Shown piece after piece: positions 19,299-36,151 of a DNA stretch of 46,733 nt. The DNA comes from a virus: positions 1-46,733 of the IMG/VR virus record IMGVR_UViG_3300006121_000012; one strand, given 5' to 3'. The notes under the pieces are model-generated. The model searched no databases, was not told the DNA's origin, and worked only from the letters and a program-made list of their open reading frames with translations. Every line of letters begins with the position of its first letter. The first letter of the stretch is position 1. The position numbers were made by a program, and so were the translations under genes.

Positions 19299-21746
19299 AT
19301 GCCATTTGAATCGGAAGCCCAAAGAAAAGCTATGTATGCCGCCGCAAGCGGTCATGGCAATATTGGCATCCCTAAAGAAGTGGCAAAGAAATTTATTAAA
19401 CACTCAGAAGACGGCGATATTCCTGAAGAATCTACGCCCCTTGCAACTCCCGAATTTAAAGAAGATGATGCTGACCCTTGTTGGGAAGGTTACAAACAAT
19501 TAGGAATGAAGCAAAAAGGCGGCAAAGAAGTGCCCAATTGCGTTCCAGAGGATGATTCTGAGGCTTGGGAGACCAAGGAAGGTAAGAATAAAAAAGGCGG
19601 TTTAAATGCCAAAGGCAGGGCTTCTTACAACAAAGAGCATGGCGCACATTTAAAAGCCCCTCAACCTGAAGGCGGGTCAAGGAAAGAATCATTTTGCGCC
19701 CGAATGTCAGGCATGAAAGAAAAGCTAACTTCTGACAAAACAAAACACGACCCAAATTCCAGGATTAATTTAGCATTAAAAAAATGGAAGTGCGATGCTG
19801 ATTGGGATAGTTCCAAAGTTCAATCAGAATTAAAAGGCTTGTCAGCCAAATTAGCAGAAATTACTAAAAGTATTACAACTTTAAAAGCTGATGATTTAGC
19901 CGTTGAAAGAATTGCAACTGGTTCAAAATCTGATGCTATGCCAATTGACAAAGATGCAGGGGCATTAGGTCGTGCCGCAGGAATAATGTTTTTGACCAAT
20001 GACGGCAAAGTATTATTGATTCGCAGGGGAGATGGTGGCGATTATCCTCAAACTTGGGCAGTACCAGGCGGTCATCAAAATAAAGAAGATGCAAACTTAG
20101 AAGAAGCGGCTAGGCGTGAATGTTTTGAAGAAACAGGTATCAAGTACGAAGGCAAGTTGGAAGTATTATTTGATGACGGTCAATTTTGTACTTATATTGC
20201 CAGAAATTTTGAGCAAGTTCCAGTAACTTTGAACCATGAATCAACTGGATTTGATTGGTGTCATGTTGATAATCCCCCAATGCCTTTGCACCCAGGACAA
20301 AATATTTGTTTCAAAATTGCAAGTGCAAAAACAGAATTCGATTATGCTGAATTAATTAGGCAAGATTTATTGCCAAGCCCTCAAATGTATGCTAATGTTA
20401 TGCTATTAGCTATTCGCATTACAGGAACAGGGTTAGCTTATCGTTCAAGTATTGGTGAGCACGTTTGGCGTGATTCCAGTTTATATTTGAATGATGACTT
20501 TTTAAAGCGTTGTAATGGGTTGATTGTGATAATGGATCACCCTGAAACTGCGGTTTTGACTTCCAAGGAATTCAAGGACAGAGCAGTTGGAAGTATTATT
20601 CTGCCTTATATTAAGGGAGATGAAGTTTGGGGTATTGCGAAAATCTACGACCAAGATGCGGTAAACACCATTTTGACCGAAGAAGTTAGCACTAGCCCAT
20701 CTGTTGTTTTTGACCAAACAGCAGGTAACACGACACTAACGACTGAGAATGGAGAGCCACTCTTGATCGAAGGTGTACCATTTCTTTTAGATCATATTGC
20801 TATCGTAACTGAAGCAAGGGGTTCTAAAGGAGTATGGGACAAGGGTGGCGAACCCGCAGGAGTATTATTAACTAACCAAGAGGTATCTGAAATGACAGAC
20901 AACAAAGTAGAGCCGAAAGCAGATGCTCAAGGCGATAAACTAGATGCCATTCTTTCGGCTCTCAGCTCCATGAGTGTGAGAATTGATGAGATGGAAAAAA
21001 ATCTTCCCGCCCCTCCACTCGTTACTGCCGCTGATAAAAAGCGCAAAGACGAAGATGCGAAAATGGACGATGATGATGAGGAATCAGAATCAGAAGCCAA
21101 ACACTTCATGGAACGCAAAATGGATTCCAAAAAGCGTAAAGATGAAGATATGGAAGAAAAGCACATGGAATCAAGAAAAGCAGATAAGCATCGTAAAGAT
21201 GATGATGACGAAGATGACATGAAAAAAGCCAAGAAAGATGCCGAAGGCTCTGACATGGGCGAAGAAAAAATGCCCTCAGGTGAAATGAAGCCTGATGACG
21301 ATGATGCCAAGAAGGATGAAGAAGCTATGAAGATGGACGAAGCCGCCGCAGAATACGCAGATGCACAAGCAAAATGCGATTCAGTTTTAGCCGCTTTTGG
21401 TAAGTCAGCTTCCCGCCCACTACAAGGCGAATCATTGATGGCTTATAGGAAACGTCTTCTCAGAGGATTGCAAGCGTATTCTGATAGCTACAAGGATATT
21501 AACCTTGCAACTATAAAAGATGCAAAATTACTCGAATTAGCTGAAAAGCAAATTATGAATGATGCAATGACTGCCGCAAGAACATCTAGTCATGTTCCTG
21601 GAGATCAATTGATTGCTATTCAATCAAGAGATTCAAGCGGTCGTACAATCACTAAGTATCGTGGTTCAATGGAAGCATGGCTTGGCGATTTCAAAGTTCC
21701 TCCACAAAGAGCAACTACTTTCCATACACCTAACAACCAACGCTAA
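19299..21746 (+). CDS. Fusion: DUF6321 + Nudix hydrolase + DUF2213 protease-like + scaffold (815 aa)
   Basis: One long open frame. Residues 1-38 carry a recurrent phage motif (MPFESEAQRKAMYAAASG). Residues 57-84 hold DPCWEGYKQLGMK..VPNCVP. Residues 97-166 match DUF6321 (GGLNAKGRASYN, SFCARMSGMK). Residues 225-345 are a Nudix domain with box GGHQNKEDANLEEAARRE then CFEETGI (257-281). Residues 375-525 match DUF2213, a head-protease-like family (GLIVIMDHPE, STSPSVVF). Residues 532-815 are a charged, helical scaffold-like region. It precedes decoration and capsid genes, so it probably functions in procapsid assembly. A nested start at 20892 is likely. Confidence 0.85.
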   Translation: MPFESEAQRKAMYAAASGHGNIGIPKEVAKKFIKHSEDGDIPEESTPLATPEFKEDDADPCWEGYKQLGMKQKGGKEVPNCVPEDDSEAWETKEGKNKKGGLNAKGRASYNKEHGAHLKAPQPEGGSRKESFCARMSGMKEKLTSDKTKHDPNSRINLALKKWKCDADWDSSKVQSELKGLSAKLAEITKSITTLKADDLAVERIATGSKSDAMPIDKDAGALGRAAGIMFLTNDGKVLLIRRGDGGDYPQTWAVPGGHQNKEDANLEEAARRECFEETGIKYEGKLEVLFDDGQFCTYIARNFEQVPVTLNHESTGFDWCHVDNPPMPLHPGQNICFKIASAKTEFDYAELIRQDLLPSPQMYANVMLLAIRITGTGLAYRSSIGEHVWRDSSLYLNDDFLKRCNGLIVIMDHPETAVLTSKEFKDRAVGSIILPYIKGDEVWGIAKIYDQDAVNTILTEEVSTSPSVVFDQTAGNTTLTTENGEPLLIEGVPFLLDHIAIVTEARGSKGVWDKGGEPAGVLLTNQEVSEMTDNKVEPKADAQGDKLDAILSALSSMSVRIDEMEKNLPAPPLVTAADKKRKDEDAKMDDDDEESESEAKHFMERKMDSKKRKDEDMEEKHMESRKADKHRKDDDDEDDMKKAKKDAEGSDMGEEKMPSGEMKPDDDDAKKDEEAMKMDEAAAEYADAQAKCDSVLAAFGKSASRPLQGESLMAYRKRLLRGLQAYSDSYKDINLATIKDAKLLELAEKQIMNDAMTAARTSSHVPGDQLIAIQSRDSSGRTITKYRGSMEAWLGDFKVPPQRATTFHTPNNQR
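20892..21746 (+). CDS. Putative nested scaffold protein, internal start (284 aa)
   Basis: In frame with the 815-aa gene, an ATG at 20892 has AGAGG 8 nt upstream and begins MTDNKVEPKADAQGDKL. This is exactly where the DUF2213 part ends and the scaffold-like part begins. The product has an early amphipathic helix (ILSALSSMSVRIDEMEKN), a long run of Lys/Asp/Glu repeats, and a conserved-looking C-terminus (SDSYKDINLATIKDAKLL and GSMEAWLGDF). It resembles the lambda C/Nu3 arrangement of protease with nested scaffold. Production of the short form is not proven. Confidence 0.6.
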   Translation: MTDNKVEPKADAQGDKLDAILSALSSMSVRIDEMEKNLPAPPLVTAADKKRKDEDAKMDDDDEESESEAKHFMERKMDSKKRKDEDMEEKHMESRKADKHRKDDDDEDDMKKAKKDAEGSDMGEEKMPSGEMKPDDDDAKKDEEAMKMDEAAAEYADAQAKCDSVLAAFGKSASRPLQGESLMAYRKRLLRGLQAYSDSYKDINLATIKDAKLLELAEKQIMNDAMTAARTSSHVPGDQLIAIQSRDSSGRTITKYRGSMEAWLGDFKVPPQRATTFHTPNNQR

Positions 21747-26595: not shown

Positions 26596-27894
26596 ATGCC
26601 TAATATTGTTAATGTTTCGGTCACTCAGCAGGTTGCGAGTGCGCCATCAACTTTGCAAAGAACAGGTGCAATTGTTAGCCAAGGCGGTACAACCTTGGCT
26701 TCAGGTACTACTCAATTATTGACTTCAGTTAGCGGTTTAAATAGCATTTTAAGTGGTGCTATTACTCTTTCCGCTATGACTTGGAGTGCAAACGTAGTAT
26801 CAGCAACAACTGCAACTCCTCATGGTATTCCAAACGGTCAAATAGTATCTGCAATAATTACTGGCGTAACTCCATCGGGTTACAACGGCACTTATCAAAT
26901 TACTTCAACTGGTGCTAATACATTTACTTATGCTTTAAGCGTTAACCCTGGTAGCTCAACTGTTCAGGGTGCGGTTACTTTGTCCGATGTTTCAGAATTG
27001 GTTGCACAAGTTACAACTTATTTTGCACAAGGCACAGGAAATGCGGTTTATGTACTAGAACTTGGAACTGGTTCACCTGCGGCGGGTGTAACGGCTTTAG
27101 AAGCCTACATTGCTAACCCAACGGTTAAGTTTTATAGTTACTTGTTACCTTTGCAGTGGGATGTAGAAACAACTGCGCCAACAATGGCTAGGTTGTATGT
27201 CAGCACGACTTCTGAGTTATATTTCTATGTAACCACAACAACTGCTACTTACACCAATTGGACAGGTATCAAATCAGTATTTGCAACACTTCAAACCCCA
27301 ACTGCTCCAGTTACAGAATTTGATGCGGCGGCGATGTTTGCCATTACTTTGGGATACAACCCAGGTAGTTCCAACCTGGCTTCACCGCTTGAGTACACAT
27401 TCTTATATGGCGTAACTCCTTATTCAACTCTAACAAATGCGCAACAAACTTCTTTGAGTGCGGTAGGTGTAAACTGGGTTGGAACAGGCGCACAAGGTCA
27501 AATTAGCAATACTTTGATTCAAACTGGTAGTTTCATGGATTTAAACCCATTTAACTATTGGTATTGCGTTGATTGGTTATCAATAAATGTCTCAATAGCA
27601 CTTGCGGCGGCAATTATCAACGGTAGCAATACACCAACAAATCCTTTGTATTACAACCAAGCAGGTATAAATACCCTGCAAAAAGTTGCACAAGCTACGG
27701 TTAATAGTGGTATTTCTTTTGGTTTAATACTTTCACCCGCAACGGTCAATGCAGTATCATTCCAAACGTATATTACTCAAAACCCAAGCAATTATGCGGC
27801 AGGTATTTATAACGGTCTAAGTTGCACATTTGTGCCACTCAGAGGATTTACATCTATTACCATTTACTTGACTGCAAGTAATATTCCAGTTTAA
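26596..27894 (+). CDS. Tail sheath protein
   Basis: A 432-aa contractile sheath subunit, shown by order (sheath, tube, chaperones, tape measure) and by typical features: an N-terminal MPNIVNVSVTQQVASAPSTL, a hexamer-building C-terminus (FVPLRGFTSITIYLTASN), and DWLSINVSIALAAAI in the core. Residues about 58-126 are an inserted beta module (VTPSGYNGTYQITSTGANTF) also present in the proteins at 33600 and 35222. It drives tail contraction. Confidence 0.85.
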   Translation: MPNIVNVSVTQQVASAPSTLQRTGAIVSQGGTTLASGTTQLLTSVSGLNSILSGAITLSAMTWSANVVSATTATPHGIPNGQIVSAIITGVTPSGYNGTYQITSTGANTFTYALSVNPGSSTVQGAVTLSDVSELVAQVTTYFAQGTGNAVYVLELGTGSPAAGVTALEAYIANPTVKFYSYLLPLQWDVETTAPTMARLYVSTTSELYFYVTTTTATYTNWTGIKSVFATLQTPTAPVTEFDAAAMFAITLGYNPGSSNLASPLEYTFLYGVTPYSTLTNAQQTSLSAVGVNWVGTGAQGQISNTLIQTGSFMDLNPFNYWYCVDWLSINVSIALAAAIINGSNTPTNPLYYNQAGINTLQKVAQATVNSGISFGLILSPATVNAVSFQTYITQNPSNYAAGIYNGLSCTFVPLRGFTSITIYLTASNIPV

Positions 27895-27904
27895 GGAGCA
27901 ATAA

Positions 27905-28348
27905 ATGTCAAATCCACAAGTCGTACAAGGTACACTAAATAGACTACTTGCAAGCGTAGTATTTGCCAACTTTACCAACCTAAACGTAACTTCTGCTTAC
28001 CTTGCAAAAGAAGCGATTAGCCTTGGTTTTGATGGCGACACTTCCCAGTTGATTGGCACTTTAACAGGTGCGGTTACAAGCCCAGAGCCTTACATTTACG
28101 GCACAGTAACCATGCACTTGTTAAGAACCCAAGCACTTGGAAACGCATACAAGCAACAAATTGAAACAAACACAACAATGGGTTCAGTTACTGTAATACC
28201 TGATTCTGTTGCTTTGAGTTCGTTCCAGTTGAACAATTGTGTTTTATCAAGTATTCAAGAAGTAGCTTTTGACGGTACACAAGCGGGTTTAATCGTTCGT
28301 TTGCGTGGCGTTTATAGTATCAACTCAAGTTTATTTGCAATCGGTTAA
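27905..28348 (+). CDS. Tail tube protein
   Basis: A 147-aa protein immediately after the sheath with GGAGCAATAAATG. Beta-rich, with ISLGFDGDTSQLIGTLTGAV and VTMHLLRTQALGNAYKQQIE. Size and gene order match the inner tail tube of contractile phages, which forms hexameric rings inside the sheath. Confidence 0.8.
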   Translation: MSNPQVVQGTLNRLLASVVFANFTNLNVTSAYLAKEAISLGFDGDTSQLIGTLTGAVTSPEPYIYGTVTMHLLRTQALGNAYKQQIETNTTMGSVTVIPDSVALSSFQLNNCVLSSIQEVAFDGTQAGLIVRLRGVYSINSSLFAIG

Positions 28349-28360
28349 AAAGGATAAATT

Positions 28361-28945
28361 GTGAAAATCGACAGAAATCTGAACCTAGTGATGCAAGTTC
28401 AGACTGGTCGAAACGGATTGGTTTATATTCATTCCGCTTCAATTAGTCGATCTGTATTTGAGCAGTTTTACCTTGAATTGGGCAAAGTATTTAGTCAATG
28501 CTTTGATTCAATTAACCAGGCGCATTTGGCTTTATCTGCTCCCCAACTTGCTTATCCTGCCTTGAAGTCTTTGGCTATAAAGGCGGGTAATTGGGATGGA
28601 AATGGTGGCGTTAAGTTTGGTTTGATTAATGAAATAGTCAGATTAACCAACGTCATTATGAGTACAGAAAAAGGATGGGAAACAATTCCTTTTGACGTAG
28701 CGGTGAAAAGAGAAATCTTAGATGAAGATGAAGAAGCCGAAACTCTTTCATCCTTGGTTTTTTTTACTGCAATCTCCAAGGTTGCTCCGAAGGATTTGAA
28801 AAATTCTTTCTTGGAGATGGCAGGAGCGTTACGAAATTGGGAAATTTCATCCTTGGACTGTACGGCGTTTCAGAATGGCTTGCCGATACAGACAAAGCCA
28901 GAAACTATTGGCAAGAAGGTGAAGGAATCATCCATCATTGCTTAG
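28361..28945 (+). CDS. Tail assembly chaperone, unshifted form (194 aa)
   Basis: GTG start with AAAAGGATAAATT. A mostly helical protein between tube and tape-measure genes, which is the universal place for tail assembly chaperones (lambda G/GT, P2 E/E'). It has an acidic stretch DEDEEAETL just before a TTTTTTT slippery site at 28759-28765. The unshifted product ends at 28945. Confidence 0.75.
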   Translation: MKIDRNLNLVMQVQTGRNGLVYIHSASISRSVFEQFYLELGKVFSQCFDSINQAHLALSAPQLAYPALKSLAIKAGNWDGNGGVKFGLINEIVRLTNVIMSTEKGWETIPFDVAVKREILDEDEEAETLSSLVFFTAISKVAPKDLKNSFLEMAGALRNWEISSLDCTAFQNGLPIQTKPETIGKKVKESSIIA

Positions 28946-29067
28946 AAAAATTAAGTAATGCCTGGTTTGGTGAATTTATCAAGGAAAGTGGCGGCAAATG
29001 GACGGATGCTAATGAATACAGGAATCGTCATTTAATAAAAGCAATCAGTAATAGATCACTTTTTTAA
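28361..29067 (+). CDS. Tail assembly chaperone, -1 frameshifted form (about 235 aa)
   Basis: The -1 frame is open from 28732 to 29067 and overlaps the first frame. It has no good start codon or ribosome-binding site of its own. T_TTT_TTT at 28759-28765 is in the correct phase (codons GTT TTT TTT). Slippage there would join 135 residues to 100 from the -1 frame (YCNLQGCSEGFEKF, then GLYGVSEWLADTDKAR). This matches the conserved programmed frameshift of tail chaperones. The exact slip position is inferred. Confidence 0.7.
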
Positions 29068-29078
29068 AAGAGAGAAAA

Positions 29079-30743
29079 ATGGCAACCAAAAGTGTTATTC
29101 AGATTGACGTTTTAGACGAATCTTTTAAGAAATTTCAACAAGCATTTGATAAATATCAAGCCGCACTTAAAAAAATGCCTGGTGATTGGCAAAAGGTCAA
29201 TCAGGCATCAGCAGGTGGCGCACAAGCGTTAAACAAGCACCTAGAAAAATCTTTAAAGAATCTGCAAGACTTTGATAAGAAAGTCAAAGATGCAAACAAA
29301 GATTTAAAAGAAACCGAAAAATCCACAAGTAATATTGCCCAAAACTTGGCTAATAGCGTTGTTTCGCTTGCCAGGTGGGTTACGCTAGGTTCAATTGGCG
29401 GTGGCTTTGGATTGGGCGCATTAGGCGCAAGCGCAAGCGATTACCGCAGACAAGCGCAAGGATTGGGTATTTCTACTGGCGGATTAAGAGCCGCAAACGT
29501 CAATTTGGGGCGTTATATCAACCCAGGACAGGTTTTAGGCAACATTGCTGATATACAGAATGACCTATCAAGAAGTCCGATTCTGAGCCGTTTAGGGCTT
29601 GTTGCAGGGCAAAATGCGGAACAAGCATTGCCAACAATTATCACCAATGCCATCAAGCTATTTAATCAGGGAGGAAAAACAAGCCAATTTGCTCAAGCAA
29701 TGGGATTAACCCAAGTTTTCAGCTTAGAAGAATTGCGCCGTTTGTCTTCACTCAGCCAAAAAGAATTACAAGAAACTTTCAAAAGATTAAAGCAAGACAG
29801 GGATACATTGTCGGTTGACGATGAGACAAGTCGCAAATGGCAGGATTTTTGGGTTCAACTCAAACGATCTGGTAATGATCTTGAAACCAAATTAATTGAC
29901 AAACTGGTTGCCCTTGCACCTGCTTTTGAAAAAGTATCCGAAGGAATTACAAAATTCATAACAAGTTTGCTTGATAGTCCAGATTTAAAAAAATGGATTG
30001 AAAACTTGGGTGAAAATATTGGTAAATTTGGCGAATATCTAACATCGCCTGAATTTAAGCAAGATGTTGCAGAATTTTACAATTCCATAAAAAGTTTTGG
30101 AATTACGGTGATGAACGCCGTCAATTTCATTCAGGATTTGCTTAAAACGCCTGAACAAAGAAATGCAGAATTAAAAGCAAAAGGAAAATTAACTCCTGAA
30201 ACAATGAGTTATTCCATGTCAACAAGATTTGCTCAATTTTTGTACGAACATGGTCTTTATGCAAGCGGTCAACAAGATAGCCCTGAAATGGCTAGATTTA
30301 AACAGGAAATGGCAAAAACTTCGCCTACTGTCGGTTCAATAGCTGAAAGGTTTATGAATCCTGGTAATTTGAGAGTTCCTGGAAGTGCAACACAATTTCA
30401 AAAATTTTCTTCAAATGAGGAAGGATTAAGGGCAATGGCTAAACAATTATTACGCTACGAACGGCGTGATAATTTAGATACCGTTGAAGGTATTGTCAGC
30501 AAATATGCGCCATCTTCCGAAAATAATACTCAAGCCTATATTAAAAGTGTTTTGGCTAGAACTGGATTTGCGCCTGGTCAGCACTTAAACTTAGAAAATC
30601 CTGCGGTTCTTTCTAATTTAATGTCAGCTATGACAAAACAAGAAAACTCAAGAAGCAACTTTACCGCAAGTGATATTCAAAGAATTTTAATTCAAGATTT
30701 TACTGGTGGTAATATAATTATAACAACCAATGGAATGAAGTGA
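29079..30743 (+). CDS. Tape measure protein with C-terminal lysozyme-like domain (554 aa)
   Basis: Helical, coiled-coil N-terminus (DKYQAALKKMPGDWQKV, then KNLQDFDKKVKDANKD) and a hydrophobic segment about 92-118 (VSLARWVTLGSIGGGFGLG) mark a tail-length ruler. From about residue 427 it has NPGNLRVPGSATQF, FSSNEEGLRAMAKQLLRYE and YAPSSENNTQAYIKSV, the pattern of virion-associated lysozyme-like domains of phage structural proteins. It would breach peptidoglycan at injection. Short for a tape measure, so the tail should be fairly short. Confidence 0.85.
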   Translation: MATKSVIQIDVLDESFKKFQQAFDKYQAALKKMPGDWQKVNQASAGGAQALNKHLEKSLKNLQDFDKKVKDANKDLKETEKSTSNIAQNLANSVVSLARWVTLGSIGGGFGLGALGASASDYRRQAQGLGISTGGLRAANVNLGRYINPGQVLGNIADIQNDLSRSPILSRLGLVAGQNAEQALPTIITNAIKLFNQGGKTSQFAQAMGLTQVFSLEELRRLSSLSQKELQETFKRLKQDRDTLSVDDETSRKWQDFWVQLKRSGNDLETKLIDKLVALAPAFEKVSEGITKFITSLLDSPDLKKWIENLGENIGKFGEYLTSPEFKQDVAEFYNSIKSFGITVMNAVNFIQDLLKTPEQRNAELKAKGKLTPETMSYSMSTRFAQFLYEHGLYASGQQDSPEMARFKQEMAKTSPTVGSIAERFMNPGNLRVPGSATQFQKFSSNEEGLRAMAKQLLRYERRDNLDTVEGIVSKYAPSSENNTQAYIKSVLARTGFAPGQHLNLENPAVLSNLMSAMTKQENSRSNFTASDIQRILIQDFTGGNIIITTNGMK

Positions 30744-30750
30744 GGATTGT

Positions 30751-31362
30751 ATGAGTTCTTTTGGTCAAACCGCATTTCAAGCCGCATACGAAATATCGCC
30801 CATTATTTTGCAAAATGGAATTGCGCAATTTATTCCTGGCGGATTGTTGCCGATTACTGTTTTGACTGAAATGTTTGATATTCCAGGAATTGAAGAAGGT
30901 CAATTTTTTGCGCATTACAAGCCTTTGCCTGGAAGCACATTAGCAGATTGGCAGGTAGCTGAATATCCATTTTTTAGTTTGCAGATGGCGGCTAATGCGG
31001 TTGTTCAAATGCCTTTAAAAGTTAGTATGCTGATGGTTTGCCCTGCGCAAAATGATGGCGGTTATTTAATCAAGCAAGCTATTTTGACCGCTTTACAAAC
31101 AGAAATTCAAACGCACATATCCCAAGGCGGTACATTTACGGTTATCACCCCTGCTTACACCTACACCAATTGCCTTTTAACAGGCATCAGGGACGTTAGT
31201 AGCGCAGGTGACAAGCAAGTACAACTGATGTATCAATGGGACTTTGTACAACCTTTAATTACCGTTACTGGGGCATTGCAGGTTTTGGGGTCGCTATTGC
31301 AGAACATTGGTGCAGGTAATCCAGTACCTACTAATATAACTTCTACTATATCAAGTTGGTAA
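30751..31362 (+). CDS. Tail/baseplate protein after the tape measure (203 aa)
   Basis: Begins MSSFGQTAFQAAYEISPIIL and contains GGLLPITVLTEMFDIPG and FAHYKPLPGSTLADWQ, then a beta-rich part and a C-terminal LQVLGSLLQNIGAG. The order tape measure, this protein, plug, hub, spike is that of simple myophage baseplates. It is probably the tail-hub adaptor joining the tube to the baseplate. Confidence 0.65.
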   Translation: MSSFGQTAFQAAYEISPIILQNGIAQFIPGGLLPITVLTEMFDIPGIEEGQFFAHYKPLPGSTLADWQVAEYPFFSLQMAANAVVQMPLKVSMLMVCPAQNDGGYLIKQAILTALQTEIQTHISQGGTFTVITPAYTYTNCLLTGIRDVSSAGDKQVQLMYQWDFVQPLITVTGALQVLGSLLQNIGAGNPVPTNITSTISSW

Positions 31363-31363
31363 T

Positions 31364-31636
31364 ATGACTACATTCGTTGCATTTAACCCATCGCCAAATC
31401 AGCCGTTTCAATTTAATCCTACTTTGGATGGTCAAACGTACATTGCAACTTGTACTTGGAATGTTTATGGGCAAAGGTATTGCGTCAATATTTATAACAA
31501 TTTTAGGACTTTAATCGTTAGCAGACCAATTATTTCATCTCCTGATGATTATGATATTAATCTGGTGTTTGGTTATTTCACTACTTCATCTTTGGTTTAC
31601 AGAGCAAGTAGTGGAAACTTTGAGATTAATCCATAA
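31364..31636 (+). CDS. Baseplate plug, Pam3 gp18-like (90 aa)
   Basis: Contains LDGQTYIATCTWNVYGQRY, then CVNIYNNFRTLIVSRP and SSLVYRASSGNFEI. The pattern of a ligand-like WN..GQRY centre and a final aromatic strand matches the small baseplate plug family described from cyanophage Pam3. It probably closes the tube at the hub. Starts 2 nt after the preceding stop. Confidence 0.7.
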   Translation: MTTFVAFNPSPNQPFQFNPTLDGQTYIATCTWNVYGQRYCVNIYNNFRTLIVSRPIISSPDDYDINLVFGYFTTSSLVYRASSGNFEINP

Positions 31637-32638
31637 ATGCGTTTTTACAACATTGTCATAAGCCCAGGATCGCAAAGTCAAACGGCTTTTCTACCTATAA
31701 CCTATTCTTCAATGGTTATACCTGGTATTGTGCCAACTGGATTAGACAATACATCAGCACTCAGAGTCGATTTAGATATTTTTCAAACTTGGTATCATCA
31801 GCCGTCACAAATTGGAACGGTCAGGATTTATGGCGTTTCATTCCAAGATTTAAACCAATCTGCTAATTTTAACGGCGCAAAAATTCAAATTTCTGTTGGA
31901 ATGTCTGCGGGGTTGCCTTTTGCAGATCAATTTCAAGCAGGATTAATTATTGATGGAACAGTAATTCAGGCGTTCGGAAATTGGCAAGGAACTCAAGTTG
32001 TTCTTAATTTGCAAGTCGCCCCCGCAACCTATAACCCAAGTGCTAATGCCAACATCATTTTGGATTGGAAAATGGGTCAACCATTACAGTCAGCCGTTGA
32101 AAGTTCTTTGTCAATATCTTATCCAGGCGTTCCAGTTTATGGAGAATTTAGCCCAAATCTTGTATATACAGAAAATGTAACTGGTTACTATCCTAATTTG
32201 GAATCATTTTGCAAATGGGTTAACGACACTAGCAAAAATATTATTAAATTACCAAATTACATTGGCGCAAGTGTGGCTAATTCTGCCATTGGCTTTGTTT
32301 TGACGGACGGAACAACACCTGCAACTGAATCAGCGGCTATCAATTATTGGGATTTAATTGGTAATATTACTTGGATTGATGTTGCTACCGTTCAAGCAAA
32401 ATTGGTTATGAGGGCGGATTTGAATATTGGAGATAGCATTATCTTTCCTGCGGGAAGCCCAATTACAAATACAGTTGCAAGTTTTTCTCAATATAGAAAT
32501 CTTGTTTCCTTTGATGGCATTTTTACAATAACGCAGATACGTCATGTTGGAAATAGTCGCCAAGCAGATGCAAACAGTTGGGTAACTATTATTGATTGCG
32601 TTATTCCTGGCGTGCCTTTAACATTGGATGAATTATGA
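31637..32638 (+). CDS. Baseplate hub protein (333 aa)
   Basis: Lies directly between the plug and the spike. Beta-rich throughout, with a central ESFCKWVNDTSKNIIKLP and a C-terminal FSQYRNLVSFDGIFTITQIRH, the strand-helix features of gpD/gp44-like hub proteins. Probably trimeric and the base for the spike. The stop overlaps the spike start. Confidence 0.7.
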   Translation: MRFYNIVISPGSQSQTAFLPITYSSMVIPGIVPTGLDNTSALRVDLDIFQTWYHQPSQIGTVRIYGVSFQDLNQSANFNGAKIQISVGMSAGLPFADQFQAGLIIDGTVIQAFGNWQGTQVVLNLQVAPATYNPSANANIILDWKMGQPLQSAVESSLSISYPGVPVYGEFSPNLVYTENVTGYYPNLESFCKWVNDTSKNIIKLPNYIGASVANSAIGFVLTDGTTPATESAAINYWDLIGNITWIDVATVQAKLVMRADLNIGDSIIFPAGSPITNTVASFSQYRNLVSFDGIFTITQIRHVGNSRQADANSWVTIIDCVIPGVPLTLDEL

Positions 32639-33279
32639 GCCAGGCACAAAAAACACCGTTTGCGAGGACGATGAATGATTTTTCTCAACAAAAGATTGAG
32701 AATAATATTAATTCGCTTGGGAAAGTATTACCTTGTTCGGTCGTTTCTGTTGAAGGGGCAATTGTTACGGTCAATTTTGAGGTTTACAGTACATTAAATA
32801 CCCCATTACCCCCAGTAACTTGCGCAACTATTGGAAGCCAATATATTCGTACCCCCATACAAGTAGGTGATTTGGGAATTTGTATTTCGGCAGATGTTCG
32901 ACTTGGTGGAATTAATGGATTGGGAGCAGGTTTAGCCCCCTTAGATTCACCTGCAAGCAATTTGGGTGCTTTGGTATTTGTTCCAATTGGAAGTTCTTTG
33001 TGGGAAGAAGTAAACCCCTTGGCGGTAGTTATTCAAGCACCAGATGGGGCAAGTCTTGCAGATACCGCAGGTGATAATTCTATTGTGGTTACAAATACTG
33101 GAATTCAAGTATCTAGTTCAACAAGCCTTACTTTATCGGTCGGTTCTAATACAATCTCAATAACATCATCTGGAATAAGTATTACTGGTACTTTGACCAT
33201 AAACGGCAAACCATTCTTGGCGCACCAACATACTGGAGTTACCACAGGAAGCGGTGTTTCAGGGGGAGTATCACCATGA
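32635..33279 (+). CDS. Baseplate spike (gpV/Gp138-like)
   Basis: A 214-aa protein with an OB-fold-like N-terminal half (LPCSVVSVEGAIVTVNFEV, IRTPIQVGDLGICIS), a triple-stranded beta-helix-like repetitive stretch (STSLTLSVGSNTISITS, GISITGTLTI), and a C-terminal tip with AHQHTGVTTGSGVSGG. The His-x-His near the tip coordinates an iron ion in P2 gpV-type membrane-piercing spikes. ATGA overlaps both neighbours. Confidence 0.85.
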   Translation: MSQAQKTPFARTMNDFSQQKIENNINSLGKVLPCSVVSVEGAIVTVNFEVYSTLNTPLPPVTCATIGSQYIRTPIQVGDLGICISADVRLGGINGLGAGLAPLDSPASNLGALVFVPIGSSLWEEVNPLAVVIQAPDGASLADTAGDNSIVVTNTGIQVSSSTSLTLSVGSNTISITSSGISITGTLTINGKPFLAHQHTGVTTGSGVSGGVSP

Positions 33280-33596
33280 GAAGCTACGGACAAGATCAAA
33301 ACGGAAATTGGGTAGAAATTACCGAAACTTCTTATATTTGGTTGGCAACATTGATTCAAACTTTGCGCTTAACCCAAGGGGAAAGCCCAGTTTATGGAAA
33401 TTACGGCATACCAGGGCAAAACTCTGTTATGACCCAAATTGCGCCTGATGTTGCCTTAAATAGAACACAATCCCAGTTCGCACCTTATTTTGCAAGTTTA
33501 ACAATTCTTAGACAACAAAACGCAACGCAACCAACTTACAATATTAAGGCGGTTTTCCAAAATGGGACGACAATCCAAACTACGGTAGTGAGTTAA
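33276..33596 (+). CDS. gp25/W-like baseplate wedge protein (106 aa)
   Basis: YIWLATLIQTLRLTQGESPV, then YGNYGIPGQNSVMTQIAPD and FAPYFASLTI, are the ordered motifs of short phage baseplate wedge proteins positioned like P2 W or T4 gp25. It should link the sheath to the baseplate wedge. Overlaps the spike gene by 4 nt and precedes the gpJ-like gene by 3 nt. Confidence 0.75.
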   Translation: MRSYGQDQNGNWVEITETSYIWLATLIQTLRLTQGESPVYGNYGIPGQNSVMTQIAPDVALNRTQSQFAPYFASLTILRQQNATQPTYNIKAVFQNGTTIQTTVVS

Positions 33597-33599
33597 AAA

Positions 33600-35225
33600 A
33601 TGGCACAACTAACAACGGCAGGTGCAGTACCAACTAGCCCAACGGATTTATTAAACGCAGAAATAGCGGCGGCAACCGCATTATCCCCAGGATTGACCGC
33701 AAATTTGCCTGGTTCACTTGTCGAAGATATGGCATCAACCGCAGTCGGTGCGGTAGTTATTCAAGATCAAGCATTTGTTGACTTGGTTAATTCGATTTCC
33801 CCCTATACCGCTAACCCATTTATTCTTTACGAATTGGGTGCGGTTTACGGCGTTACGCAAGGCGTAGGCAATAATACATCGGTTTATGTAACTTTTATTG
33901 GTACGCCTGGGTTTGTAATTAGTGCAGGATTTGTTGTTTCTGATGGAACGCATCAATACACAGTACAAGACGGTGGAATTGTTTCTGCAAGTGGTCAAAG
34001 TGCCGCCCTTTACTGTTTGGCAAATAATGCAGGTTCTTGGGCAGTTCCAATTGGTACAGTCACAACTATCGTTACTTCCATACCATCAGGAGTTACCCTA
34101 ACTTGCACAAATGAATCGGCAGGTGTTCCAGGCGCAACTGCTCAAACAATTCAAAGCTATCAGGCGCAAGTAATTCAGGCGGGACAAGCAATTGCCACAG
34201 GTATGCCAACATTCCTGAAAACTCAACTTCAAAAAGTATCGGGAGTTCAGCCAAATTTAATTTCTGTACGTCAACCAACATCTGGTACGGCTTGGGAAGT
34301 TATTGTTGGCGGTGGAGACCCTTACGAAGTGGCAAATGCCATTTATACAGGATTGTTTGATATTTCTAATCTGGTTGGTTCTACTTTTCAAGTAACCAAC
34401 ATTACAAACGCATACCCCGCCGTTGTGACGATTAATCTGAATCATGGCTACACAACTGGTCAAGTTGTTCAAATTACTGGCGAAACTGGAATGTCAAACG
34501 TCAATGGCAATAATTTTGTTGCTATCGTTATTGATGAAAAAACTTTTAGCCTTAATGTAAAAATTTCAACCATAACTTGGTCAGGTGGTACGGTTACAGT
34601 TACAACAGCTTCCCCTCATGGATTGCCAACTGGAACAACTTCGGGAACGATTTACGGATGTACCCCAAGTGCTTACAACGGTTCTTACACATTCACAAGA
34701 ACAGGCGCAAGCACCTTTACTTATCCTTTGGCATCAAACCCTGGAACTGCTACGGTTTTGGGTTATACGCCCTTTGATTCGGCTTCTCAAGGGGCTTGGA
34801 CAAGCGGGGGTGTGGTAACTCCTAACTTTAGGAATGTAACGGTATCAATCAATAATTACCCCGATACTTACAACATTACTTTTGTAAACCCTCCTCCTCA
34901 AACGGTGACGGTTACATTGCTTTGGAATACCATTGCGGTTAACTATGTATCAACAACTGCAATTGCTTCTACTGGCATACCTGCAATTGTTGCTTATATC
35001 AATTCAATTCCAGTAGGTCAGCCAATTAGTATTTTTGATTTACAAATGGCATTTACGACTGCGGTAGCTTCGTTATTAAATGTTAGCCTAATTTCAGAAA
35101 TGCAATTTACAATAACAATCAATGGGATAACAACTTCACCATCAAGTGGTCAGGGAGTAATTTATGGAGACCCTGAAAGTTATTTTGAAACGACTAATGG
35201 TTTGGTAACTATTACACAAGTATGA
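33600..35225 (+). CDS. Baseplate J-like protein with two inserted beta modules (541 aa)
   Basis: N-terminal SPTDLLNAEIAAATALSPG, then LPGSLVEDMASTAVGAVV and TANPFILYELGAVYGVTQG, are those of gpJ/gp47-like wedge proteins. Two beta modules are inserted: residues about 263-320 (VTINLNHGYTTGQVVQITG, FCCH-like) and 323-388 (VTTASPHGLPTG, GCTPSAYNGSYTF). The C-terminus SIFDLQMAFTTAVASLLNVS is usual for the family. The second module recurs in the sheath and the next protein. Confidence 0.8.
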   Translation: MAQLTTAGAVPTSPTDLLNAEIAAATALSPGLTANLPGSLVEDMASTAVGAVVIQDQAFVDLVNSISPYTANPFILYELGAVYGVTQGVGNNTSVYVTFIGTPGFVISAGFVVSDGTHQYTVQDGGIVSASGQSAALYCLANNAGSWAVPIGTVTTIVTSIPSGVTLTCTNESAGVPGATAQTIQSYQAQVIQAGQAIATGMPTFLKTQLQKVSGVQPNLISVRQPTSGTAWEVIVGGGDPYEVANAIYTGLFDISNLVGSTFQVTNITNAYPAVVTINLNHGYTTGQVVQITGETGMSNVNGNNFVAIVIDEKTFSLNVKISTITWSGGTVTVTTASPHGLPTGTTSGTIYGCTPSAYNGSYTFTRTGASTFTYPLASNPGTATVLGYTPFDSASQGAWTSGGVVTPNFRNVTVSINNYPDTYNITFVNPPPQTVTVTLLWNTIAVNYVSTTAIASTGIPAIVAYINSIPVGQPISIFDLQMAFTTAVASLLNVSLISEMQFTITINGITTSPSSGQGVIYGDPESYFETTNGLVTITQV

Positions 35226-36151
35226 TTTCCCAAATACTACCTGCTTATCTTTACCAACAATACCAGGGTGGTACTGCGCCCCCTGCTTTTACAAATGGTC
35301 AATCAGCGATTGCGGGATTTGGTATTGCAGGAGAAGCTATTGCAGGTGCAAGTTCATTAACTCAGCCAGTTCCTTATGTTGAATCATTCTTTGATGCTTA
35401 TAACGCAACTGCACAAAGTTACTTAGATCAAATTAATTCACTTAATTTGCCAATCTATACAAAATTAAGTTATCCATTATTAGATTGGGTTGGAAATTCT
35501 TTGTACGGTCAGCCTCGTCCTACTTTGACGTTGAACAATATTCAATTGGTCGGCGGTACTTACAACGCTGATTTGTACGATACCCAGGTTTATGACGGCG
35601 TAAAGATTCAAATTAATGGTATTGCAATTACTGCTATTAGTTGGACAAATGGAATTGTTACGGTCACAACTTCTGCATCTATCGCAGTTCCAACAGGCGT
35701 ACAGTTTGTTGGATACATTTACGGATGTACTCCTAATGCGTATAACGGTTTATATCAATGTACTCAAACTGGAACTTATACCTTTACCTATAATTTATTA
35801 AATAATCCAGGTAGTGAAACAGTTCTAGGAATTGTTCAATTATCTGCCGAAACTGTAAGTGATGACATTTACCAAAGATGTATTACTTGGAATTTCTATA
35901 AAGGCGATGGATTTCAATTTAATATTAATTGGCTAAAAAGAAGAATAATTAGATTCTTAACAGGCGCAAATGGCGTTGCACCTGAGATTGATAACACCTA
36001 CAATGTCAGCGTAACTTTTCAATCTGGAAACAATGTTCTAATCACGATTCCAAATACTTTTGAATCTTCGGTGGCTATTTATTTAGCATCGGCTTTGAAT
36101 TCAGGAGTATTACAACTGCCGTTCCAGTACATTTTTACAATTGCTTATTAA
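35222..36151 (+). CDS. Tail protein I-like baseplate component with beta module (309 aa)
   Basis: Residues 50-100 (VPYVESFFDAYNATAQSYL, YPLLDWVGNSLYGQPRP) and the C-terminal part (FNINWLKRRIIRFLTGANG, then a beta-rich end) mark a gpI/gp48-like wedge protein. Between them, residues 136-206 are a copy of the beta module (YIYGCTPNAYNGLYQC, NNPGSETVLG). It should connect the wedge to the tail fibres. Confidence 0.75.
   Translation: MISQILPAYLYQQYQGGTAPPAFTNGQSAIAGFGIAGEAIAGASSLTQPVPYVESFFDAYNATAQSYLDQINSLNLPIYTKLSYPLLDWVGNSLYGQPRPTLTLNNIQLVGGTYNADLYDTQVYDGVKIQINGIAITAISWTNGIVTVTTSASIAVPTGVQFVGYIYGCTPNAYNGLYQCTQTGTYTFTYNLLNNPGSETVLGIVQLSAETVSDDIYQRCITWNFYKGDGFQFNINWLKRRIIRFLTGANGVAPEIDNTYNVSVTFQSGNNVLITIPNTFESSVAIYLASALNSGVLQLPFQYIFTIAY

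Follow-up and report, generated by a model that had tools for sequence, protein, structure and literature searches.

Tail proteins with the module and their identity

Why should a tail sheath, a baseplate wedge protein and the product of a third tail gene, which are unrelated to one another, carry the same small beta-rich segment? This question is raised by the IMG/VR virus record IMGVR_UViG_3300006121_000012, whose 46,733 nucleotides were analysed as a whole (the window). The initial annotation claimed one module shared by a sheath, a baseplate J-like (gpJ-like) and a tail I-like (gpI-like) protein. We found that small barrels sit in loops of all three proteins and are cleanly absent from relatives, and that the gpJ module is nested in an older barrel of the same superfamily, the FCCH type (first catalytic cysteine half-domain). 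The module is probably a compact FCCH-type beta-barrel, an accessory domain that is both optional and mobile in this contractile-tail family. The three copies, each about 67 residues long, and their host genes are as follows.

26596..27894, plus strand: tail sheath protein, 432 amino acids (aa), host of copy 1 (phrog_205, 6.9e-35 over residues 3-426)
26770..26970, plus strand: module copy 1, sheath residues 59-125, six strands
33600..35225, plus strand: gpJ-like baseplate wedge protein, 541 aa, host of copy 2 and of the FCCH domain (PF04865, phrog_6)
34563..34763, plus strand: module copy 2, gpJ-like residues 322-388
35222..36151, plus strand: third tail/baseplate protein, 309 aa, host of copy 3, directly 3' of gpJ (phrog_8212, 3e-52), aligned with relatives of 208-240 aa
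35630..35830, plus strand: module copy 3, residues 137-203 of the third protein

Pairwise local alignment gave 34-38 identical residues per pair over 67-72 positions: 38/67 for the gpJ and sheath copies (BLOSUM62 score 200, best of 500 shuffles 74), 34/72 for the third-protein and sheath copies (score 168, shuffle maximum 57) and 38/67 for the gpJ and third-protein copies (score 195, shuffle maximum 68). A six-frame search of the 46.7-kb record found exactly three copies, each with E 1e-19 or better, and the module profile matches within each host family were strong, mostly 1e-20 to 1e-31. Tail proteins are rich in beta-forming, T/G-rich sequence, and such composition could produce likeness by chance or convergence; the scores of 168-200 against shuffle maxima of 57-74, the family profile matches and the empty sites at the exact module boundaries in relatives leave this explanation with practically no probability. 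An assembly artefact was also ruled out, as the gpJ and gpI copies recur in the separate contigs L010-L014. Searches of PDB sequences with the three window proteins and the sheath profile returned nothing relevant. The three copies are thus confirmed as homologous and as genuine insertions, and the claim of one module in three tail proteins stands.

Structure predictions cover the sheath and gpJ. The AlphaFold2 (AF2) model of the sheath (mean predicted local distance difference test score, pLDDT, 87) matched the solved sheaths of Bas63, Sf14, PhiTE and E217 in Foldseek, with E down to 5e-13, and this agrees with the phrog_205 assignment. Copy 1 is inserted between the N-terminal segment of the sheath and the core helix at residues 130-144. 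The J-like identity of the second host was likewise upheld by PF04865 (23.9 bits, 3e-5, over the cut-off of 21.1), by phrog_6 (2.3e-20) and by Foldseek matches of its model to the wedge J proteins of Pa193, E217 and XM1; this model is of moderate quality overall (mean pLDDT 77, predicted template modelling score, pTM, 0.53), and its barrel region is near 90. The name tail I-like fared less well: it is backed by gene order and by how a single relative is annotated (DUF2612, PdC23), but no gpI-family profile in Pfam or NCBIfam matched the window protein or its relatives. We keep gpI as the name of this slot. The third protein also has a Gly/Ala-rich insert near its N-terminus, SAIAGFGIAGEAIAG, at residues about 26-60 (gene at 35222-36151), which occurs in few relatives (L123, L125, L142) and is absent from most.

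Nesting of the module in the FCCH domain of gpJ

The initial annotation had also proposed a second, FCCH-like module in gpJ. This domain is real, it belongs to PF16190, and it proves to be split by the shared module.

34392..34562, plus strand: E1_FCCH-type domain, first part, gpJ residues 265-321 (PF16190 profile positions 3-56, 24.0 bits)
34773..34823, plus strand: FCCH domain, last part, gpJ residues 392-408

The first-part match ends at profile position 56, where the shared module interrupts the domain ahead of its final strand. When the module was removed, the match extended over PF16190 positions 3-67 with 32.1 bits, over the 29.5-bit cut-off, and relatives without the insert have a full E1_FCCH domain in gpJ (41-56 bits, positions 2-67 of 70). 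NCBIfam Ube1 matches the same stretch. In a single-sequence search, the gpJ barrel of Pantoea phage PdC23 found human UBA6 at E 4e-9 and UBA1 at 3e-8. The gpJ barrel of this phage family, in the window and at L005:10762-10980, closely resembles the FCCH domain of both enzymes. In L123 and the L221/L229 group, a further module copy occupies another loop of the FCCH domain, just past the conserved N[GNS].

The three shared-module copies had no match to PF16190 even at E 10, but profile-profile comparison related the two: HHalign gave a probability of 97.4% and E 1.2e-11 for the sheath set, and 96.2% for the set of J and I modules. The predicted structures point the same way. Strands start at 56, 67, 83, 98, 109 and 126 in the sheath copy and at 331, 346, 361, 372 and 389 in the gpJ copy, the latter after a long strand (315-328) that continues from the FCCH part, so that the spacing is nearly identical in the two models. 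Foldseek matched the sheath model modestly to UBA1 (6dc6, prob 0.75, E 3.6e-3), and the gpJ model to UBA1 and UBA6 besides tail proteins. By profile comparison, the shared module and the FCCH barrel are homologous, and profiles and models together assign the module to the FCCH-type fold. Against Ig-superfamily profiles, the shared module gave only He_PIG, in one copy and below cut-off (E 0.038).

Empty sites and copy numbers in relatives

The nearest named relatives are Klebsiella phages Chronis, RothC and RothD, Pantoea PdC23, Yersinia vB_YenM phages, Actinobacillus pPE4, Escherichia Rac-SA53 and Shewanella QDWS. Most of the contigs and prophages compared with them were retrieved through profiles of the core from which the module was left out, but for some the module served as the query, so the frequencies below are not unbiased. 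Modules were counted by profile coverage; an iterated module model drifts into FCCH, so that gpJ counts also required the NPG..G end.

Clean empty sites were found in relatives for all three host genes. The gpI and gpJ modules are absent from all named relatives, most of which have the sheath module; pPE4 and Rac-SA53 have a diverged form of it, and QDWS has none. Altogether 95 of 101 distinct sheaths carry it, including four partial profile matches (pPE4, Rac-SA53, L161 and L177), and the six without it are L008 (Shewanella QDWS), L230, L235 and the prophages L248-L250. The L235 sheath is a complete protein (about 360 residues, from an open frame of 369) in which a short loop takes the exact place of the insert. 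In gpJ, 79 of 100 distinct proteins have no module, 17 have one and four have two, and in gpI the module is present in 15 of 85 and the site is empty in 70. The sheath/J/I copy combinations found were 1,0,0; 1,1,0; 1,0,1; 1,1,1; 1,2,1 and 0,0,0.

The gpJ segment between the conserved halves measures 10-11 residues without a barrel, about 81 with FCCH, about 155 with FCCH and one module, and 234 with FCCH and two modules, and thus steps through 0, 1, 2 and 3 barrels. Within one clade of support 100, it is 10 residues long in L142, 81 in L117 and 159 in L123. On the core tree, the gpJ module label needs six changes, of which at least three are forced by well-supported branches, while the gpI module needs one change (support 70). 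Nearly all members of the family thus have a filled sheath slot; in gpJ there were three to six changes of state, at two sites, and in gpI probably one.

Further variation was seen beside these slots. The sheath at L043:5806-7458 (551 aa) has two module copies at two different sites, and the module-free QDWS sheath (L008, 15239-16561) carries an insert of another kind, a Gly-rich repeat (GSGYTSAPTVTF...), elsewhere in its sequence. In pPE4 and Rac-SA53 (L007, L009), an opposite-strand anti-repressor gene lies inside the baseplate operon, between the spike-region genes and gpJ. A contig in a Mucilaginibacter metagenome bin (L242) is 74% identical to this phage family over the gpJ core; the other genome matches of the family are in Proteobacteria, and L242 is probably a wrongly binned virus.

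History of the copies

The initial annotation suggested duplication as the source of the three copies. Their common origin, by duplication or recombination, is borne out by the empty sites, the homology and the strand spacing, but an event in this phage is contradicted by the grouping of the copies. They cluster by slot and not by genome, with 10 label changes against 57.6 in shuffles in the first tree and 7 against 32.4 in a more careful one. The gpJ and gpI copies of the window are nearest to copies in the same slot of other phages, and the sheath copy is nearest to other sheath copies. A clade of the three window copies was rejected by the approximately unbiased (AU) test (p 2e-5; tested after the first tree was seen). 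DNA comparison, suggested at the outset for estimating age, gave only 57-60% identity among the three copies, whose protein identity is 50-57%. The one point in favour of a recent duplication inside this phage is that all three lie within one 9.5-kb stretch; given the low DNA identity, the nearest copies in other phages and the rejected clade, we regard such an event as having negligible probability. The copies are old, repeated and dispensable insertions.

As to the donor, the J and I modules tend to group (Shimodaira-Hasegawa-like approximate likelihood ratio test, SH-aLRT, 84). The first of the two gpJ copies in L229, L231 and L221 falls inside the sheath modules; its nearest sheath copy, that of L070, shares 73-75% identity with it. 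In the L123 group, too, some gpJ copies fall among sheath modules. This pattern would fit repeated donation from the sheath gene.

Occurrence in other proteins and phages

The module also occurs at the C-terminal side of plug-like proteins (L043:11479-11973, L069:11761-12183 and L084:10535-11401) and in phrog_5107 proteins. The window's own Pam3 gp18-like plug protein (31364-31636; PF22479, 27.5 bits) is without it. Farther away, it was found in the very large gp7-like baseplate wedge genes of the T4-like cyanophages S-CREM1 (L257) and S-RIM2 (L258); the S-RIM2 stretch was detected by tblastn (E 4e-4) and its motif is plain by eye, yet hmmsearch gave no match. FCCH barrels are present in other phages of Pelagibacter (in a protein annotated as tail tubular protein B), Xanthomonas and Vibrio.

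The FCCH domain of ubiquitin-activating enzymes has been described as eukaryote-only (PMC11354881), and a literature search for a link between FCCH and phages found none, although this search was limited and is not proof of absence. From the single-sequence match and the matching fold, homology of the phage gpJ FCCH barrel to E1 FCCH looks sound, and it is compatible with descent in either direction. That the FCCH of eukaryotic E1 is itself a member of a mobile pool of phage-tail barrels, acquired from a phage or prophage module, is a conceivable extension that we consider quite improbable.

Elsewhere in the window, the long protein encoded at 19299-21746 seems by eye to join a Nudix-like motif to a part resembling a prohead protease and to an extended stretch rich in D, K and E.

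Possible function of the barrels

We infer that recombination between tail genes carries the barrel into a tolerant loop, where it forms a new copy, and that sheath-type copies are the likeliest donors. The barrels would point to the outside of the tail, and weak contacts that they make there, either with envelope polysaccharide or with neighbouring tail subunits, may modulate adsorption or stability without being essential. On this view the module would be a dispensable barrel on the tail exterior whose contacts are weak and of a presumed kind. A study of sheath proteins locates their extra beta domains away from the tube and proposes roles in adhesion or stability for them (PMC9230969). Exposure and weak surface binding, as the initial annotation suggested, are plausible, and the dispensability of the module, its loop sites and its presence in tail and baseplate proteins of other phages are compatible with a common surface role.

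Several points weigh against the optional accessory barrel as we describe it. Its outward exposure is presumed, and 66 alignment columns (supports 80-85) are too few to settle the source of each insertion. The divergence of the modules exceeds that of their hosts by little, whereas a receptor binder that changes fast would differ far more: mean identity of module and host core is 0.57 against 0.60 in the sheath, 0.64 against 0.68 in gpJ and 0.56 against 0.62 in gpI. Retention of the copy by 95 of the 101 sheaths suggests that it is more than a neutral passenger there.

In a set of 106 distinct modules, conservation is strongest at W, VT, G, P, YNG, T, TY, NPG and the final G, and no conserved ligand patch beyond the fold-defining motifs was seen; HG, NG and TF are common to the module and the FCCH domain. 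Conserved positions for which FCCH offers a comparison recur in that domain, which suggests constraint on the fold rather than on a ligand site. The same observation bears on a more specific proposal, in which the module binds a host-surface glycan and was copied around to raise avidity. Exposed phage Ig-like domains have been proposed as weak binders of surface carbohydrate, with extra sheath domains lying away from the tube (PMC9230969), and the joined FCCH segment has a faint match, of E 0.0025-0.0044 and thus below cut-off, to the barrel domain of a phage endosialidase. However, strongly conserved positions (W, VTVT, HG, G, P.YNG, T, TY.L, NPG, G) that mostly look fold-defining, with HG, NG and TF shared with FCCH and no separate ligand patch, and a divergence near that of the host protein, free of hypervariability, make such a glycan binder possible but doubtful.

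The barrels may instead brace the tail, the sheath, wedge and gpI copies contacting each other or neighbouring subunits and so stabilising the extended state. All three hosts are sheath and baseplate proteins, the sheath copy is nearly universal, and in phage 812 an additional domain of the sheath is believed to make the disk more stable (PMC9230969). The gpJ and gpI copies, however, come and go independently, as the six combinations indicate, and we consider bracing rather unlikely. About equally unlikely, in our judgement, is that the modules are close to neutral and functionless, merely tolerated by the loops into which recombination of similar sequences has spread them. Their presence often differs between close relatives, one barrel is nested in another, and the conserved residues look structural, but complete copies keep the fold motifs, and nearly all sheaths retain the module over deep divergence.

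Relation to known systems and significance

The gpJ barrel is like E1_FCCH (PF16190) of UBA1 and UBA6 in sequence and predicted fold, but it lies in tail proteins, outside the context of an E1 enzyme, and the shared module does not reach PF16190 by sequence and has a different C-terminal signature, NPG..T..G. In its distribution the module resembles the promiscuous Ig-like domains of phages (cited in PMC9230969), which are small, variable, dispensable and probably exposed beta domains in many unrelated structural proteins; by profile, however, it is not Ig, and its structural match is the FCCH barrel. The window sheath is also comparable to Type 2 tail sheaths, which have about 430-470 aa and one extra beta domain between core parts (PMC9230969). 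We found such a conserved core with one extra beta domain, whose position away from the tube would follow from PMC9230969 only; the difference is that here the extra domain could be assigned to the FCCH type and linked to the copies that this phage has in further tail proteins. Klebsiella Chronis and RothD, Pantoea PdC23 (Certevirus) and Yersinia vB_YenM_30.14 share the sheath module and the order of the tail genes with this phage, but their gpJ has the FCCH domain only and their gpI lacks the module. The known theme is therefore that of promiscuous domains; what is new is the FCCH-type barrel in place of Ig and the nesting of barrel within barrel, and the pattern is older and more dynamic than the initial annotation supposed.

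These phages offer a natural series with 0, 1, 2 or 3 barrels in one baseplate protein and empty sites in all three hosts, which lets the role of optional beta domains of phage tails be examined by comparing otherwise similar phages. The theme of promiscuous domains extends past Ig folds, such domains can nest within one another, and a domain used by eukaryotic ubiquitin enzymes is tied to phage tails.

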